Source: a virus. From it: 25,789 nucleotides of DNA. Position numbers and translations under genes: made by a program. Positions 3,035 to 23,453 of this stretch are shown piece by piece (within the stretch, counting starts at the first letter, position 1; each line of letters begins with the position of its first letter). Under the pieces are notes generated by a model, which saw only the letters and a list, made by a program, of their open reading frames with translations, did not search any database and had not been told where the DNA came from. Location: positions 1 through 25,789 of IMG/VR virus record IMGVR_UViG_3300021142_000163; one strand, 5' to 3'.

Positions 3035-3457
3035 ATGACACAAAAACTTGCAGAATTATTTGATTTACCGCCAGCTAGCAAAGAAATGGTAGAAGCACTT
3101 GATAATGCTAATCAGCTTGAAGCAAGCTTACCCGAAGCACCAGAAGATGCTATGGACAAAGAACTTGATGAATTAACTGAAAAAGCAGTTGAGAGTTTTG
3201 AAAATTTACAGAGTCTTGGTATGAATGTAGAGGCTAGATTTTCAGCACCTATCTTTGAAGCAAGTGCTAAGATGTTAGCAACGGCAGTTACTGCAAAACT
3301 AGGTAAAGTGCAAAAGAAACTTAAACAAACCGAACTTGCAATGAGAGCGCAGAAACTTCAACATGATATGAATAAAGACAAGGGCGAAGAAACAGAAACT
3401 ATTAGTGCCACTGTTTTTGACCGAAACGAGTTACTTCGTACAATAAGAAAAAACTAA
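3035..3457 (+). CDS. gp16: Probable small terminase subunit (gp16-like)
   Basis: The protein has 140 residues. It has an acidic N-terminal part, a long helical and probably coiled-coil centre (FEASAKMLATAVTAKLGKVQ at about 75-95, then KKLKQTELAMRAQKLQHDM), and a C-terminal tail with ATVFDRNELLRTI. This matches, from memory, the layout of gp16 in marine T4-like phages, where a two-helix coiled coil is followed by a tail with an xVFxGSxxEL-like motif. Small terminases form rings that recognise DNA and stimulate the gp17 motor. The stop codon TAA at 3455-3457 is also the beginning of the shared leader of the homing endonuclease that follows, so that element appears inserted right at the end of this gene. 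A scaffold or other coiled-coil protein is the main alternative. Confidence 0.6.
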   Translation: MTQKLAELFDLPPASKEMVEALDNANQLEASLPEAPEDAMDKELDELTEKAVESFENLQSLGMNVEARFSAPIFEASAKMLATAVTAKLGKVQKKLKQTELAMRAQKLQHDMNKDKGEETETISATVFDRNELLRTIRKN

Positions 3458-3518
3458 ATAATAGTGTAGGTCGCGGACGGGAATCCCACCTACTCTATCG
3501 CCTGGGAGGGCAACAGTA
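3455..3518 (+). promoter_or_regulatory. Conserved structured leader of GIY-YIG endonuclease (copy 1)
   Basis: This leader is almost identical to the one in front of the second GIY-YIG gene (complement of 23391-23453): 59 of 62 bases match from TAAATA to CAACAG. It starts with a TAAATA late-type motif (3455-3460). Next comes an inverted repeat, ATAG-T-GTAGGT (3461-3471) against ACCTAC-T-CTAT (3488-3498), with a single T·T mismatch. A strong Shine-Dalgarno, GGAGGG (3505-3510), ends eight bases before the ATG. A late start six bases after the motif would fall on G3466, the first base of the GTAGGT arm. The segment TCCC at 3484-3487 could instead pair with GGGA at 3504-3507 in the ribosome-binding site. 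Confidence 0.7.
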
Positions 3519-4121
3519 ATGATATTTAATTATAATAATCCACCAAGTGGATACTATGTATATGCTTATATAAAAAAGTCCGATTTAACGCCATATTATA
3601 TTGGTAAGGGTAAAGATAAAAGAGCATATAAGGTACATAATGGCATATCTGTCCCCAAAGATCAAACTAAAATTGTTATACTTGAACATAATTTAACTGA
3701 AATTGGTGCATTGGCAATTGAACGGCGATTAATTGCTTGGTATGGCCGCAAAGATAATGGAACAGGAATACTTTTAAATAAAACAAATGGTGGCGAAGGC
3801 ATTAGCGGTGGTGTTTTTAATATTGGAAGAAAGCACTCCGAAGAAGCACGACAAAAAATGAGTCAAGCAAAAAAAGGAAAACCATCTTGGCATAAAGGAA
3901 GAAAAAAATCACCCGAATTTTGTGAAAAATTAAGAAAAGCAAATTTAGGAAAAATTTATTCTTCCGAAACTCTTAAAAAATTATCTGATGCAAAACAAGG
4001 TGAAAAAAATAATAGATATGGAATTAAGCAATCTGCTGAAACAATCGCTAAAAGAGTTGCAACGAGAAAATTAAATGCAATCCTCAAAAGTGATTTAATA
4101 AAAACAATTCAAAAACAATAA
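3519..4121 (+). CDS. GIY-YIG homing endonuclease with NUMOD3 repeats
   Basis: This is a free-standing homing endonuclease of the Seg type, 200 residues long. The N-terminal nuclease domain has [20 protein letters not shown] (residues 13-32, the GIY-YIG core), R35, the IERRLIAWYGRKDNGTG segment with the likely catalytic Glu at 68, and a conserved Asn and GGEG around 88-94. The rest consists of repeated NUMOD3-like DNA-binding modules such as KHSEEARQKMSQAKKGKPSW. It lies between the probable small terminase and the next late gene, and it is more AT- and Lys-rich than its neighbours, consistent with mobile DNA. Its leader is shared with the antisense endonuclease at 22839-23390, and the first 100 residues of the two proteins are clearly homologous. 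Confidence 0.9.
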   Translation: MIFNYNNPPSGYYVYAYIKKSDLTPYYIGKGKDKRAYKVHNGISVPKDQTKIVILEHNLTEIGALAIERRLIAWYGRKDNGTGILLNKTNGGEGISGGVFNIGRKHSEEARQKMSQAKKGKPSWHKGRKKSPEFCEKLRKANLGKIYSSETLKKLSDAKQGEKNNRYGIKQSAETIAKRVATRKLNAILKSDLIKTIQKQ

Positions 4122-4124
4122 ATA
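4117..4124 (+). promoter_or_regulatory. Possible late promoter AATAAATA
   Basis: AATAAATA overlaps the stop codon of the homing endonuclease. The next ATG is at 4143, preceded by AAAGG at 4128-4132. A start six bases after the motif (about 4130) would cut into that Shine-Dalgarno, so the role is uncertain. Confidence 0.3.
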
Positions 4125-4142
4125 TCTAAAAGGTATTCAGTA

Positions 4143-4709
4143 ATGAAAAGCTATGTTCAGTATTTGACAGATAACGAAAAGAAATATGGCTTCCGTGCAA
4201 AAATTGCTACGGAAATCACTAAAGAATCTATGAATAAACTTCAAAAAGTATTGGCTCGTTGGAATCTCGAAGCAATCAGTGAACCAAAGAGTTTGCCAGT
4301 AAGTGAAGATCATACAGGGTTTGGTCACCTTAAGGCAACAGAACTTTATATCATTGATATGGTTGTTAATTATCCTTGCACACCAGCAGAAATGCAAGCA
4401 GCGATTCACGAAGCAACACAAATTCCATTCAGTCATATTATGGTAATTACTCCTAACCAAGAAATTTTAGCTGCACCAATTGTAGCAGAAAATCCAGGCA
4501 AGACAATTTTAGATAGTCCATATCCTGAACAAAAGGCACCTCAATTACTTGCAGACCTTGCCAATGCTCTTAAAGTAAAAACAATTGAACATCCATTTGC
4601 AGTAAAACCAACAAAGGGTCAAACTACAAATGAACTTCCACAAGGCGATACTAGTCCTGTTGGAACACACCGTAATAAACTCCCAGCACGTGGAACAACA
4701 GGAAGATAA
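4143..4709 (+). CDS. Conserved T4-like phage protein, function unknown
   Basis: The protein has 188 residues. The N-terminal two thirds look like a folded alpha/beta domain: KKYGFRAKIATEITKESMNK near residue 13, then ELYIIDMVVNYPCTPAEMQA near residue 67, then HIMVITPNQEI near residue 97. The C-terminal 50 residues are Pro-, Thr- and Gly-rich and probably disordered. I recall similar proteins in the packaging and structural block of other T4-like phages but know of no assigned function. The gene has an AAAGG ribosome-binding site and is separated from the next gene by two bases, so it is probably co-translated with it. Confidence 0.5.
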   Translation: MKSYVQYLTDNEKKYGFRAKIATEITKESMNKLQKVLARWNLEAISEPKSLPVSEDHTGFGHLKATELYIIDMVVNYPCTPAEMQAAIHEATQIPFSHIMVITPNQEILAAPIVAENPGKTILDSPYPEQKAPQLLADLANALKVKTIEHPFAVKPTKGQTTNELPQGDTSPVGTHRNKLPARGTTGR

Positions 4710-14034: not shown

Positions 14035-15346
14035 GTTTAAAAATACATTCTGCAGTAGCCCATGGTTTCATTTATATTTAAAAAATGACGGGACTTATGA
14101 AACCTGTAGATGGGCAAGTAATAAAAAATTAAATCAACATATGCAAGATGTTAGTTTGCAGGATTTCTATAATGGTCCTGATATGTCTAACTTACGCACA
14201 CAATTTTTAAATGGTGAAACACCAAATATTTGTAATTCATGCCAGTATGAAGAAAAATTTAATAAGCTTGGCGGTAGGAAAAAACAATTATTAAAAAGTG
14301 GAATTACTGATAACGAATTTGAACTTAAATTTCGTAGTAGTCCTCATTATCAACATTTTAAATATAGTTGGGAAAATAATGGAAAATCTTCATATTATCC
14401 CACTGATTTACAAATAGACTTAGGAAACACTTGTAATTCATCATGCATAATGTGCAGTCCAGAGTTTAGTAATCGATTAGAAGCAGATTATAAATTACTA
14501 AACAAAGAAAACCCTGATATATTTCATCAACAAAAATTAAAAAGAAACTGGACACATGATCCAGATTTAATTGATAAATTTGTAGAAGAATTAGTTAAAT
14601 TACCAGATATAAAATATATTCACTTTTTAGGTGGAGAAACTCTTTATATGAAATCATTTTATCAAATATGTGATAAATTGATAGAAAGTGGTTTATCTAA
14701 AAATTTGATTATAGGAACAACTACCAACGGAACAGTGTATAATGAAAAATTAATTCATTATATAAAAAACTTTCGCCAATTTCATTTGGGAATAAGCATA
14801 GAAACTGTTACAAAACTTAATGATTATATAAGATATCCAAGTAATATAGTTGACGTATTAACTATAATTGAAAAATATAAATCTATTCAAAATGTTGTAG
14901 ATAATCTGTTTATTACTCTAAGAATAACACCTAATATATTTACAATATATGAATTTGACGAATTTGCCAGATATATTATAGAAAATAAATTATCTGTTGA
15001 GAGTTGCAACATTTTGACAACGCCTTCAATGATGCGTATAGAACTTTTACCATCTGATATACGAGAAGAAATTATTAACAAGTTAGAAAATGTTATAAAA
15101 TACTATAACTTGAAAAAAGACAATACTATAATTAATATAAGAAACAATGAGTTTATTAATGAAGTTATTGCAAATAATATTATAGAATATTATGATTTTA
15201 TGAAAAATTTTAAAGAACCAGATAATGTCGAAGAAGAACGATATAAATTAGTAAAATTTCTGAAAGCTTTTGAACGTTTGCGCAGCAATAGGATTACAGA
15301 TTATGCACCAAGATATACAGAATTTCTCACAAATTATGGATATTGA
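14033..15346 (+). CDS. Radical SAM protein with extra N-terminal cysteines
   Basis: The protein has 437 residues. The radical SAM cluster motif is C134-x3-C138-x2-C141 (GNTCNSSCIMC), followed by FLGGET at about 198-203 for SAM binding. The N-terminal extension has C7 (CSSPWFHLYL), C25 (ETCRW), C67 and C70 (CNSC), which could hold an auxiliary cluster or zinc. From memory this matches the twitch-domain radical SAM proteins seen in environmental phages. Substrate and product are unknown; peptide or glycan modification is possible. It has weak ribosome-binding signals (AGG only) inside an inverted repeat. The DNA is much more AT-rich than gp32 or uvsX (13 G+C of 60 in bases 14881-14940), which suggests acquisition. 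Confidence 0.8.
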   Translation: MFKNTFCSSPWFHLYLKNDGTYETCRWASNKKLNQHMQDVSLQDFYNGPDMSNLRTQFLNGETPNICNSCQYEEKFNKLGGRKKQLLKSGITDNEFELKFRSSPHYQHFKYSWENNGKSSYYPTDLQIDLGNTCNSSCIMCSPEFSNRLEADYKLLNKENPDIFHQQKLKRNWTHDPDLIDKFVEELVKLPDIKYIHFLGGETLYMKSFYQICDKLIESGLSKNLIIGTTTNGTVYNEKLIHYIKNFRQFHLGISIETVTKLNDYIRYPSNIVDVLTIIEKYKSIQNVVDNLFITLRITPNIFTIYEFDEFARYIIENKLSVESCNILTTPSMMRIELLPSDIREEIINKLENVIKYYNLKKDNTIINIRNNEFINEVIANNIIEYYDFMKNFKEPDNVEEERYKLVKFLKAFERLRSNRITDYAPRYTEFLTNYGY

Positions 15347-16794: not shown

Positions 16795-17435
16795 TGTTCA
16801 CAGAGATTGATAAGGTCTTATATCCAAATAAGTGCGAGATCATTCAAACGGCCTCGCACGAATTTATCTATCCTATATTTAAAAATGGCAGCAGTAGTTT
16901 ATTTCAAACTGCTAAATTAAATAATTGGAAAATTTTATTAAACACGCAAATAAAAAATTGTCATAAAATAATTGTATTTGTACGAGAACCTGTTGAAAGA
17001 TTTCAAACTGGAATAAACACAGTTATTGAGCATGTTTTGCGAGAAAATTTAGATGAAAAAACTATAATTTATCTTATAAAAAATAACCTTTTAATTAATA
17101 AACATTTTTTATCTCAATTTTTATGGTTAATTAGTCTGGGAAGATACACAAATCCTGAAGTTATTTTATCATTTAAACATATAGAATCCATTAAAGATTA
17201 TACTGATTTAAATAAAAATGAGTCATTAAAACAGAATTACAACTTTAAAAATGATATTGATGTAATTTCAATGATGGGTTTTTATATTGAAGCAGACAAT
17301 TTTCTTATGAAATATATTAATACAGATATAAGTTTTAAAGATTTATTACTCAATTATAAAAAAGAATGTAAATTGGGTTATCGTTATATTTTTGAACATT
17401 CAGAGAATCTTATTAATGTTTTGCCCAAGAATTAA
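16794..17435 (+). CDS. Sulfotransferase-like protein
   Basis: The protein has 213 residues, and its start overlaps the gp32 stop by one base. FKNGSSSL at 29-36 matches the 5'-phosphosulfate loop of PAPS sulfotransferases (K-x-G-S-S). VREPVERFQTGI near 63 matches the 3'-phosphate site R-(D/E)-P-x-x-R-(F/Y)-x-S, although Thr replaces Ser. The family transfers sulfate from PAPS to sugars or proteins. It is AT-rich and sits between gp32 and a radical SAM gene, looking like an inserted accessory gene. A substrate cannot be named; the glycan genes downstream are candidates. The N-terminal half is clearer than the rest, so loss of activity is possible. Confidence 0.6.
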   Translation: MFTEIDKVLYPNKCEIIQTASHEFIYPIFKNGSSSLFQTAKLNNWKILLNTQIKNCHKIIVFVREPVERFQTGINTVIEHVLRENLDEKTIIYLIKNNLLINKHFLSQFLWLISLGRYTNPEVILSFKHIESIKDYTDLNKNESLKQNYNFKNDIDVISMMGFYIEADNFLMKYINTDISFKDLLLNYKKECKLGYRYIFEHSENLINVLPKN

Positions 17436-18441
17436 TCATTTTAGAAGAATAATGCCTGATGGAAATATTGAAATTTGCGGACACATGGTTGCGCAACCAA
17501 GTTTTGATTCCTTACAGCAATTAGAAGAAAGCGAATGGTTAAAACATTTAAAAAATTCTGATACTTTACCATCAGAATGTATAAGATGTAAACAAGAAGA
17601 AGAACTTGGTCAAAAAAGTATAAGAAATCATGCTTTTGATAGGCACAAAATACTTAAAAAATATCATGAAGATTATTTGATTATTGGTGGAATACTTGAC
17701 AATATTTGCAATAGTGCCTGTCAGTTTTGCAATGAAAATTTAAGTACAAAAATTGGAAGTTTGAAATTTGGAAAATACTACAAATTAGTTAATAACTATA
17801 ATAAATTTGTAGAACTTCCACAAGATAGAATTATAGAATTGGATATTAATGGTGGTGAACCAAGTAATAGTCCAAATTATCAAAATGTTCTTGAGAATTT
17901 GCCACAAAATTTAAAAATTTTACGAATTAATACAAATTGCAGTAAATTTATAGATAATTTACCTAGTATATTAGAAAAAAAAATTAAAGTAATAGTAACA
18001 ATAAGTTTAGATGGTGTTGGTAAAGTATTTGAATATGCTAGATACCCACTTAAGTGGTATAATTTTAATAATGTTTTGCATCGTTATCTTGCATTACGTA
18101 GTGAAAGTAATTTTTTAGAGTTAGATTTTTGGACAACTTTGAGTGTTTATACTATTGAAGATTTTACTAATATAGAAAATTTTGCTAAACTAGTTAATAT
18201 ACCATTGTCTTATGGAATATTACATGAGCCTGACTGCTTAAGTATAAAATATAAAAATCCATTTAATAATGCCGCTAAAACTAAACTTATTAACAATGAA
18301 TTACAAAATTTGACAGCAAGTGATAAAGACAATTCTGAACAATTATTTGAATATATAAAAGTTCAAGATAAAATACGAGGCACAAATTTTATTACCACTT
18401 TTCCAGAACTTTATGGTATATTAATTAAAGAAGGACTATAA
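17416..18441 (+). CDS. Second radical SAM protein, same layout as the first
   Basis: The protein has 341 residues from ATG 17416; the frame extends to a TTG at 17392. The radical SAM motif is C98-x3-C102-x2-C105 (CNSACQFC), followed by INGGEP at about 145-149. The N-terminal extension has C3, C21, C55 and C58 (CIRC). The C-x17-C and C-x2-C spacings are identical to those in the protein at 14033 (C7, C25, C67, C70), supporting this start and a common origin. Overall sequences have diverged strongly. The gene overlaps the sulfotransferase by 20 bases and ends one base before uvsX. It is AT-rich. The function is unknown; modification of a glycan, peptide or virion protein is possible. Confidence 0.75.
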   Translation: MFCPRINHFRRIMPDGNIEICGHMVAQPSFDSLQQLEESEWLKHLKNSDTLPSECIRCKQEEELGQKSIRNHAFDRHKILKKYHEDYLIIGGILDNICNSACQFCNENLSTKIGSLKFGKYYKLVNNYNKFVELPQDRIIELDINGGEPSNSPNYQNVLENLPQNLKILRINTNCSKFIDNLPSILEKKIKVIVTISLDGVGKVFEYARYPLKWYNFNNVLHRYLALRSESNFLELDFWTTLSVYTIEDFTNIENFAKLVNIPLSYGILHEPDCLSIKYKNPFNNAAKTKLINNELQNLTASDKDNSEQLFEYIKVQDKIRGTNFITTFPELYGILIKEGL

Positions 18442-21640: not shown

Positions 21641-22864
21641 ATGAAGAAGATTTTAGAATTAGGCGATCACTATGTAAGTGATTTTATGAAGCCAGGCGCA
21701 GAAATGCGTGAAACAAAGCCATGGAGTCTTGATTTGTATCTTGACGAAACCATTGGTGCTGCTCGTCTTGATGGCGTTGCACCACTTGATAAGATGTATG
21801 GTCAGTATTGGTACCGTAGTGGCATCAATACAAGCATGACAAAGCAGTTGGGTGAAATCGTAGCTGAAATTACGAGCCGCACAAAGATTAACAATGGTGA
21901 TATATGGCTTGATATTGCTTGTAATGATGGTACATTGCTACGTCAGGTTCCTGATAATATGATTAAGTTGGGTATTGATCCTGCTGATGATTCATATTAT
22001 GAAGAGAGCAGCAAGGTTGCAGAAGTCAAGCAAGATTTCTTTAGTCGTGAAGCATATGATAGTCTTGGTTATGGCAATGAAAAGGTAAAGGTTATCACTT
22101 GCATTGCTATGTTCTATGATTTGAACGACCCTCGCCCATTTATTCGTGATGCTCATTCTATTCTTGCAGAAGATGGCGTGTTTGTTCTACAAATGAGTTA
22201 TACTCCGCTTATGTTAAAGCAGTTAGCATTTGATAATATCTGCCATGAACATGTTTATTACTATGACCTACGCAGTATTAAAAAGTTGTTTGAAGGCGAA
22301 GGATTTGTTCTACGTGATTGTTCACTAAACGACACCAATGGCGGTTCATTCCGTGTTACCTTCCAAAAGGCTAGCAGCGATATCAAGACTTTTGCAACTC
22401 AGCAGATTCGTGATGTTTGCGAGTTCCGTATTAATTCAACTCTTGCATATGAAGAACAGGCTTGGGATATCACTGACGAAGCACACTGGAAAGCATTTGG
22501 TGATAATATTTGGTCATTGAAGCAACAGGTTCTTGATTTCTTGCATCAAGCAAAGGCAGAAGGCAAGAAAGTGTATGGGTATGGTGCATCAACTAAAGGC
22601 AATACTTTACTACAATTGTTTGGTATTACTCCTGACCTTATGACCGCTATTGCTGAACGTTCACCATATAAGTTTGGTTTGCAGACTGTTGGAACTAATA
22701 TTCCAATTTGCAGCGAAGAAGAAATGCGAGCAGCAAACCCAGATTACTTGCTTGTTCTTCCTTGGCATTTTTTGGATGAATTCGTCAAGCGTGAAGGTGA
22801 CTTTATCGCAAAGGGCGGCAAACTTATAGTTCCTTGTCCTAAATTTGCCGTGATTGGTGCCTAA
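21641..22864 (+). CDS. SAM-dependent C-methyltransferase-like protein
   Basis: The protein has 407 residues. It has a class I methyltransferase fold with motif [14 protein letters not shown] at 90-102, a central [20 protein letters not shown] segment typical of sugar C-methyltransferases, and a C-terminal domain with [17 protein letters not shown] near 310. Related enzymes methylate 4-keto-6-deoxy sugar nucleotides, the kind of product that Gmd makes. The usual N-terminal zinc-binding CxxC module is absent: the protein starts directly at the [11 protein letters not shown] part that normally follows it. This may be a natural short form or a defect. The 3' end overlaps the antisense endonuclease gene by 26 bases. 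An SD-like AGGA lies before the ATG. Confidence 0.75.
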
Positions 22865-23390
22865 TTCGGTTTTTTGCCGATTCGCTCATTTTGCGACGAG
22901 TTTCGTCAGAAATTATTCTGGTTTTATTATAATTGATAAGTGCCAACCTACATTTCTCACGGAGTTCGTCGCTTAAAGGAGCACGATTTTTTTGTGCAAT
23001 GTTTAGTTTTTCTCGATGTTTTTCCGATAAAGGTTTTCCTTTTTTGGCGAAACTCATTTTAGCAAGAGATTCAGGCGAACGATTGCGTGATGCAAGTCCA
23101 ATTTTTTCTCTCGTTTCTTTTGATGGATTTGCACCCCCATCGCCGCCGTCAGTTAAATTGTGTAATATGCCTGTTCCTAAATCTTTACGACCATATTTGG
23201 TAATAAGTTCTCGTTCTAAATTAAATGCTTGATCTTCTGTAAGATTATCTGAAATTATAATAATTCTATTTTTATCTTTTGGTGGTTTTACACGATGATG
23301 TGAAGAAAAGGCTCTATAACCTTTGCCTTTGCCAATGTAATATGGAGTTAAATCTTCACGAATGTATTGATATACATAATAAGTATTCAT
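22839..23390 (-). CDS. GIY-YIG homing endonuclease with NUMOD3 repeats (antisense)
   Basis: The protein has 183 residues and is homologous to the one at 3519. The GIY-YIG core is [20 protein letters not shown] at 4-23, followed by R26, the likely catalytic Glu at 59 in [18 protein letters not shown], and a DGGDGG loop near 81. The C-terminal half is made of NUMOD3-like repeats, for example [20 protein letters not shown]. It lies antisense in the glycan operon and may be a mobile insertion. It has the same structured leader as its relative. Its insertion separates the methyltransferase from the glycosyltransferase-like gene, which has its own promoter. Confidence 0.9.
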
Positions 23391-23453
23391 GCTGTTGCCC
23401 TCCTAGGCGATAGAGTAGGTGGGATTGCCGTCCGTGACCTACACTATTATTTA
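23391..23453 (-). promoter_or_regulatory. Conserved structured leader of GIY-YIG endonuclease (copy 2)
   Basis: Read on the minus strand, it runs from TAAATA (23453 to 23448) to CAACAG before the ATG at 23390, with three substitutions relative to copy 1 (3455-3518). Both stem arms are unchanged: on the plus strand ATAG-A-GTAGGT (23410-23420) against ACCTAC-A-CTAT (23437-23447). The GGAGGG ribosome-binding site is also kept. The changes fall in the loop and in the GCC-T(G/A)GG linker. Confidence 0.7.

Follow-up and report, generated by a model that had tools for sequence, protein, structure and literature searches.

How is the expression of a free-standing homing endonuclease set, when it has to be high enough for the gene to spread and low enough to spare the phage? 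To our knowledge, the control of such genes in most phages is largely unknown. The question is raised by a viral record of 25,789 nucleotides (the window, meaning the whole stretch of DNA analysed), in which two homing endonuclease genes stand behind nearly the same leader. The leaders at 3455-3516 (plus strand) and 23453-23392 (minus strand) share 59 of 62 bases (95.2%, E 2.4e-24 within the window), as a preliminary description of this DNA had noted. They are also, as it had stated, more alike than the coding regions: identity is 66% over the aligned segment that includes coding sequence. A 28-base core pattern, with up to three mismatches allowed, matched only these two leaders in the window and nothing in 100 shuffles, and a pattern search revealed no third copy in the 25,789-base record. 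The features of the two copies, with the antisense RNA predicted as argued below, are as follows.

Copy 1:
3455-3460, plus strand: predicted late-type promoter TAAATA (from sequence), overlapping the stop codon of the upstream gene
3466-3493, minus strand: predicted antisense RNA, hairpin B (called P2 on the gene strand); model R2 match at 3466-3517, E 1.8e-7
3495-3516, minus strand: predicted antisense RNA, hairpin A, with CUG/UAG as closing arm and a loop complementary to the Shine-Dalgarno sequence
3504-3510, plus strand: Shine-Dalgarno GGGAGGG of the endonuclease gene (from sequence)
3523-3528, minus strand: predicted antisense late promoter, TATTTA (TAAATA on the minus strand; from motif), 5 nt ahead of the predicted antisense start at 3517
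3519-4121, plus strand: homing endonuclease ORF, 200 aa, GIY-YIG-like by eye, with NUMOD3
Copy 2:
23448-23453, minus strand: predicted late-type promoter TAAATA (from sequence)
23415-23442, plus strand: hairpin B of the predicted antisense RNA; model R2 match at 23391-23442, E 6.3e-9
23392-23413, plus strand: hairpin A of the predicted antisense RNA (fold and model match)
23398-23404, minus strand: Shine-Dalgarno AGGAGGG (from sequence)
23380-23385, plus strand: predicted antisense promoter variant TAAGTA, 5 nt ahead of the predicted start at 23391
22839-23390, minus strand: homing endonuclease ORF, 183 aa, GIY-YIG-like by eye, with a weak NUMOD3 match

Judged by the RecA/UvsX protein, the closest named relatives are jumbo phages, Sinorhizobium phage Phosso and Agrobacterium phage Atu_ph07 among them. 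The terminase large subunit (7881-10626) is carried by two ORFs, with Terminase_6N and Terminase_6C; the latter ORF also shows an intein splicing domain, below cut-off. A free HNH/NUMOD3 ORF without the leader element (8862-9575) lies between them, so that the arrangement suggests a split intein whose gap holds a homing endonuclease. The phage structural and replication region encodes two radical SAM type proteins, one with a SPASM domain (14033-15346) and a second with a weak match only (17392-18441).

In both leaders TAAATA lies 5 nt ahead of a GTAGGT arm. Since T4 late promoters occupy positions -13 to -6 (PMC1524935), the predicted late start is the first base of that arm in both copies, which bears out the preliminary description on this point.

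The element is not confined to the window. A structural scan of fetched viral loci for the hairpin and CTA, in which neither promoter nor start codon was required, gave at least 322 matches, at least 269 of them distinct, against four on the same sequences reversed. TAAATA lies 3-10 nt upstream in 256 of the 269 distinct copies, and for 163 of 256 family members 5 nt separate TAAATA from the hairpin. Downstream, 252 of 269 have CAGC and a start codon, and in 240 of these 252 a Shine-Dalgarno core is located between CAGC and the fixed CTA. The scanned loci had been fetched by related patterns and the copies are related by descent, so that these counts are neither natural frequencies nor numbers of independent events; as pattern scans of viral contigs give lower bounds, the family is larger than counted. 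A scan for TCTA, CAGCATG and TATTTA only, with no hairpin term, found 128 places, 117 of which have the 6-bp stem (five or six pairs formed) followed by C.C. The 11 places outside this grammar comprise five chance sites (ORFs of at most 20 aa), one second register of a counted copy and five apparently damaged or shifted copies. An early hit list had been reduced to 92 rows, 62 of them distinct, low-pairing hits and five loci (L061, L063, L069, L037 and L223) being dropped as chance.

Domain matches indicate that the nucleases behind the element belong to different families, GIY-YIG, HNH and TnsA-like. Among 53 downstream proteins scanned against Pfam, NUMOD3 was found in 23, HNH in 8, HNH_3 in 3, SegE GIY-YIG in 2 and a TnsA-like domain in 1, and PHROG homing endonuclease 314 was matched by 34 of the 53. 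Single-linkage grouping of the nucleases merged nearly all of them and was not used for counting families. One contig of 5.75 kb (L015) carries four element copies before different endonuclease genes. Remnants of the element, where the endonuclease gene is not intact or the start codon is lost, occur at L194:7218-7306, L214:4706-4786, L257:5658-5740 and L058:1756-1842.

A model search of phage genomes, proposed in the preliminary description, gave three positives with R1 or R2 among 26 named phage genomes. These are Variovorax phage V45v66 (PV558790.1, 86005-86058 minus, E 3.5e-12), Pseudoalteromonas phage vB_Psh_XG4 (PP712099.1, 56144-56205 minus, E 5.4e-8) and Rhizobium phage RHph_I1_18 (MN988519.1, 80288-80377, E 2.2e-8 with R1 and, in the fetched locus, just 4.7e-4 with R2). 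Among 25 of these genomes R1 was positive in V45v66 and RHph_I1_18, a weak R1 match elsewhere in XG4 (E 0.08) not being used, and R2 was positive in V45v66 and XG4; S-PM2 was searched with R2 only. XG4 keeps the fold with the fixed pair swapped from CTA/CAG to GTA/CAC and the G·U retained. No match was obtained with R1 or R2 in T4, Aeh1, Aeromonas phage 25, cyanophages (S-PM2 by R2) or jumbo relatives. A BLAST search with the leader found no match among 50,697 phage records, and Rfam 15, searched on both strands with the window and ten family loci, has no family matching at the element. In bacterial genomes the loop pattern matched at least 120 loci; two weak structural matches among those listed, with neither promoter nor start, were taken as chance. 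A published description was not found in the literature searched; this leaves absence unproven, most subscription papers being outside its scope. The words promoter, hairpin and leader do not occur in the available portion of a survey of phage nuclease genes (PMC10448857).

On the gene strand the family stem consists of 6 bp, an R-Y pair and a further 3-6 bp, with two bulged C. Its sequence is highly variable: the 264 members examined contain 70 versions of the outer stem, fully Watson-Crick in 221 members, and 53 versions of the inner stem. In a first alignment of 56 sequences 98.4% of the cells are paired, as against 83.0% in shuffles, with two-sided changes in 7 of 10 pairs; for a second hairpin the figures are 78.6% in 252 copies and 49.5%. 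The preliminary description was thus right that a conserved, covarying element is tied to homing endonuclease genes. In the ten-pair stem that it had drawn, the TAG/CTA extension is local, TAG standing opposite the conserved CTA in only 30 of 264 members; the ribosome-binding site GGAGGG sits in the second hairpin, outside the main stem. Shared ancestry or recent gene conversion without any function might be invoked to account for the near identity of the window copies, and conversion between these two is possible. However, so many different and mostly compensated stems are more than gene conversion alone can explain, and the nearly complete compensation among both outer and inner versions refutes it for the family, making this explanation extremely improbable.

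The kind of mispair points to the strand that carries the structure. In 254 copies read on the gene strand, the outer-stem cells comprise 1472 Watson-Crick pairs, 47 A·C, 1 G·T and 4 others; A·C occurs in 24 distinct outer stems and G·T in one. The R-Y pair (8-22) is A-C in 45 of these copies and G-T in one. The first four pairs of the second hairpin show the same preference (A·C 160, G·T 8), which is reversed at the fifth pair (A·C 4, G·T 33), a position where the bases are under constraint from the Shine-Dalgarno sequence. By contrast, in 107 tRNAs from the same loci the acceptor stems, read on the RNA strand, have the normal preference (56 G·T, 2 A·C). A·C on the gene strand corresponds to G·U on the opposite strand. 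The sense-strand reading embodied in the first model, R1, was useful for searches and was dropped in favour of the antisense strand because its mispairs were almost exclusively A·C.

Comparison of the two strands over a gapless alignment (53 copies; the commonest length class has 54, of which one contains an N and was omitted) agrees with this. Read antisense, 95.9% of the cells are paired, as against 75.3% in shuffles and at most 47.5% in slid versions, and 16 of 20 pairs show two-sided changes. Read in the sense direction, the same copies have 86.7% of cells paired, and none of the 53 forms the third pair of the fixed CTA/CAG arm; in the antisense reading CTA and CAG form an arm of C-G, U-A and G·U, the two hairpins are separated by one linker base, and the bulged G is fixed across the family. 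RNAalifold finds this antisense fold unaided, with 16 of 19 pairs doubly changed. Both hairpins occur in the minimum-energy fold of 210 of 254 copies on the antisense strand and of 52 on the sense strand. The difference in stability is in part an effect of composition, antisense being the more stable strand in 197 of 254 shuffled and 245 of 254 real copies, with mean antisense-sense differences of -2.67 and -5.04 kcal/mol, respectively. The window copies themselves fold weakly relative to shuffles in the sense direction (z -0.50 and -1.45) and better on the opposite strand (z -2.79 and -2.43). The best reading of these sequence patterns is that the conserved RNA structure lies on the strand opposite the gene.

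A possible source of such an RNA is found at the beginning of the coding region. Of 148 copies not selected for the motif, 108 have TATTTA at most 20 nt from the start codon, 22 TACTTA, 10 TATATA and 8 some other sequence, so that one of the three forms is present in 140, whereas TATTTA occurs in only 12 of 2182 internal windows of the same genes and in 46 of 2121 other gene starts. It falls in all three reading frames (69, 20 and 19 copies), and is therefore not dictated by the protein sequence. Read on the opposite strand, the motif is AATAAATA, GATAAATA or TATAAATA and resembles the sense promoter, and the TAAGTA variant is found on both sides. In 81 of 149 copies, 5 nt separate the motif from the base at which the predicted antisense RNA begins, as is usual for T4 late promoters (PMC1524935); the motif is missing in nine of the 149. 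Among the named isolates, inspection by eye places it 12 nt away in RHph_I1_18 and 14 nt away in V45v66, and it was not seen in XG4. Measured from CAGC, TATTTA lies at exactly 5 nt in 83 of 142 copies, the start codon being in several registers; that its spacing would be better conserved overall from CAGC than from the start codon did not hold (entropy 1.92 versus 1.55). No terminator was clearly recognised for the predicted antisense RNA.

The same motif could instead serve a sense-strand switch of the I-TevI kind, in which TAAATA in read-through RNA would pair with TATTTA behind the start, a three-way junction would hide the start, and late RNA would be open. The logic is established for I-TevI (PMC2988022), and the TATTTA found at 108 of 148 starts would provide the partner. 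Moreover, the flanks of the two promoter motifs covary (inner flank 0.42 against 0.24 expected, reached by a fraction of 0.00125 of shuffles), which favours pairing between the motifs. The covarying bases lie just inside the motifs (3461-3465 with 3518-3522 in the window, and likewise in family members), outside the antisense model. In 35 of 104 copies the pairing predicted at 37 C exceeds 0.5, and the start region is less open in the long RNA than in the short one (0.43 versus 0.58). However, the TACTTA or TATATA present at 32 of 148 starts breaks one pair of the helix, TAAGTA also occurs as a sense promoter variant, and the strand bias of P2 and P3 falls on the other strand. The Shine-Dalgarno sequence is equally open in long and short RNA (0.425 versus 0.429). 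This equality, together with the scarcity of sense folds containing both hairpins, speaks against the I-TevI-like sense hairpin over the ribosome-binding site that the preliminary description had suggested. Its conserved covarying element and late-promoter geometry stand; its hairpin switch is not supported, the pairing evidence pointing to the opposite strand. Pairing between TAAATA and TATTTA in read-through sense RNA is possible, although as an account of the leader the sense switch is unlikely.

The preferred reading, to which we would give a probability of roughly two in three, is that the leader is a portable control module in which convergent late promoters give the endonuclease mRNA and an antisense RNA that represses the nuclease. 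The gene strand would supply a late promoter, a 5' leader and the ribosome-binding site, and the opposite strand a small structured RNA of about 52-56 nt, beginning with G or, in window copy 1, with A. Hairpin A would have 8 bp, a closing arm CUG/UAG that includes a G·U pair, and a loop complementary to the Shine-Dalgarno sequence; one linker base would join it to hairpin B, with 6 bp, an R-Y pair between two bulged G, a further 3-6 bp and a small loop. In most copies a second late-type promoter within the first codons would be directed back through the leader, and from this position mRNA and antisense RNA should overlap exactly over the leader, the antisense RNA spanning the first mRNA base to the position just before the start codon. 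By pairing with new mRNA it would hide the Shine-Dalgarno sequence and keep the nuclease scarce. The computed results are the existence of the family and the covariation within it, the strand bias, the promoter-like motif and the absence of the element from empty insertion sites. Transcription of the antisense RNA, its half-life, its 3' end and repression by it are predictions of the model.

Comparison of insertion sites suggests what moves with the element. Among 30 relatives of the gene downstream of the endonuclease gene, 26 have empty junctions (25-51 nt), three have a related cassette with its own element, and one is cut at a contig edge. None of the 26 empty sites contains the element, which therefore travels with the cassette and does not belong to the target. 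After the endonuclease gene, a TAAATA belonging to the downstream gene is still in place; the promoter and leader of the endonuclease are accordingly supplied by the cassette itself. The endonuclease ORF closes with a repeat of the upstream gene's terminus (window 4095-4146 and 3430-3457; LIKTIQKQ versus LLRTIRKN), the upstream gene end being recoded at the insertion. A shortened cassette with leader (L528) occupies the same site as the window copy; L533 was among the loci compared.

These sites also bear on whether the element acts as DNA, as a hairpin or site for homing, recombination or replication, an alternative raised for homing or recombination in the preliminary description. A single-strand DNA hairpin of the antisense strand would give the same A·C/G·T bias. 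Of 29 pairs of leaders on the same contig, 9 have the outer stem in common, as against 2257 of 26533 pairs from different contigs (pairs of near-identical nucleases left out), which hints at exchange; such sharing makes either exchange inside the phage or cross-control possible. However, the empty sites contradict a homing or recombination site, the spacing to promoter, Shine-Dalgarno sequence and start is near-constant, and the stem sequences vary freely. A DNA element is accordingly very unlikely.

It could also be asked whether the antisense RNA has another job, for example acting in trans, serving as a scaffold for protein binding or taking part in homing. The fixed bulged bases and fixed CUG/UAG arm exceed the needs of simple antisense pairing, and one RNA stands beside unrelated nucleases. 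Nevertheless, its position over the leader and Shine-Dalgarno sequence, with CAGC and a start in 252 of 269 copies, fits cis-antisense control, and one guide scaffold common to unrelated nucleases is hardly to be expected; we consider such a role quite improbable. An extension of the antisense control module is more speculative, and on balance doubtful: the element may represent a new class of mobile antisense RNA, a brake shared by unrelated selfish nucleases, whose stem versions would act like incompatibility groups, a resident silencing a matching newcomer in trans. Over their 52 overlapping bases the window copies have 4 differences, and their predicted cross-pairing (-98.5 and -109.8 kcal/mol) compares with -118 and -116 kcal/mol for their own pairs.

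Antisense control of the predicted kind has parallels in other mobile elements. RNA-OUT of IS10/Tn10 is a 69-nt RNA from the opposite strand whose first 35 nt are complementary to the transposase translation start region, and its pairing with RNA-IN blocks ribosome binding (PMC5006887). The present element would likewise place a short antisense RNA over the translation start of a mobile gene. It differs in sequence, in its two hairpins with fixed bulges, in its phage late-type promoters on both sides and in being common to unrelated nuclease families. FinP of F-like plasmids, an antisense RNA of traJ, has two stem-loops, is complementary to the ribosome-binding site and blocks translation (PMC5415839). 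The predicted RNA shares with it two stem-loops opposite a ribosome-binding site, and would share the repression; FinP, in contrast, controls a plasmid transfer regulator and is stabilised by FinO. In cyanophage S-PM2, a T4-like phage, the antisense RNA CfrI runs across a homing endonuclease gene (PMC2984593). Unlike the element, CfrI is about 225 nt long and links the endonuclease gene to psbA, and R2 found no match at E≤1 in the S-PM2 genome (AJ630128.1).

Hairpins over the ribosome-binding site in sense RNA, most with a late promoter, are described for I-TevI, I-TevII, I-TevIII, segB and Aeh1 mobE, and seg43(25) has a hairpin upstream (PMC2988022); a second review treats those of T4-like endonucleases (PMC3014915). 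They resemble the element in placing RNA structure, mostly with a late promoter, before a homing endonuclease gene. They differ in lying on the sense RNA, and neither R1 nor R2 has a match in T4, Aeh1 or Aeromonas phage 25. Another leader design was seen upstream of endonuclease genes in L478 (S-SRM01), L479 (B23), L496 (S-B68), L501 (phiN3) and L503 (S-SKS1), where TAAATA is flanked by the two arms of a long inverted repeat; with this layout the start could be hidden in read-through RNA but not in late RNA. These five leaders fit the I-TevI logic better than the window element does.

The element is real and unusual, and its function is a well-founded prediction. If this is correct, one RNA module across GIY-YIG, HNH and TnsA-like nucleases would be a general answer to the problem of expression control, and would be, within the reach of the searches, the first family of conserved antisense RNAs tied to homing endonucleases. 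The element would also serve as a marker for finding such nuclease genes in unannotated phage DNA, and the named isolates that carry it make the prediction testable.
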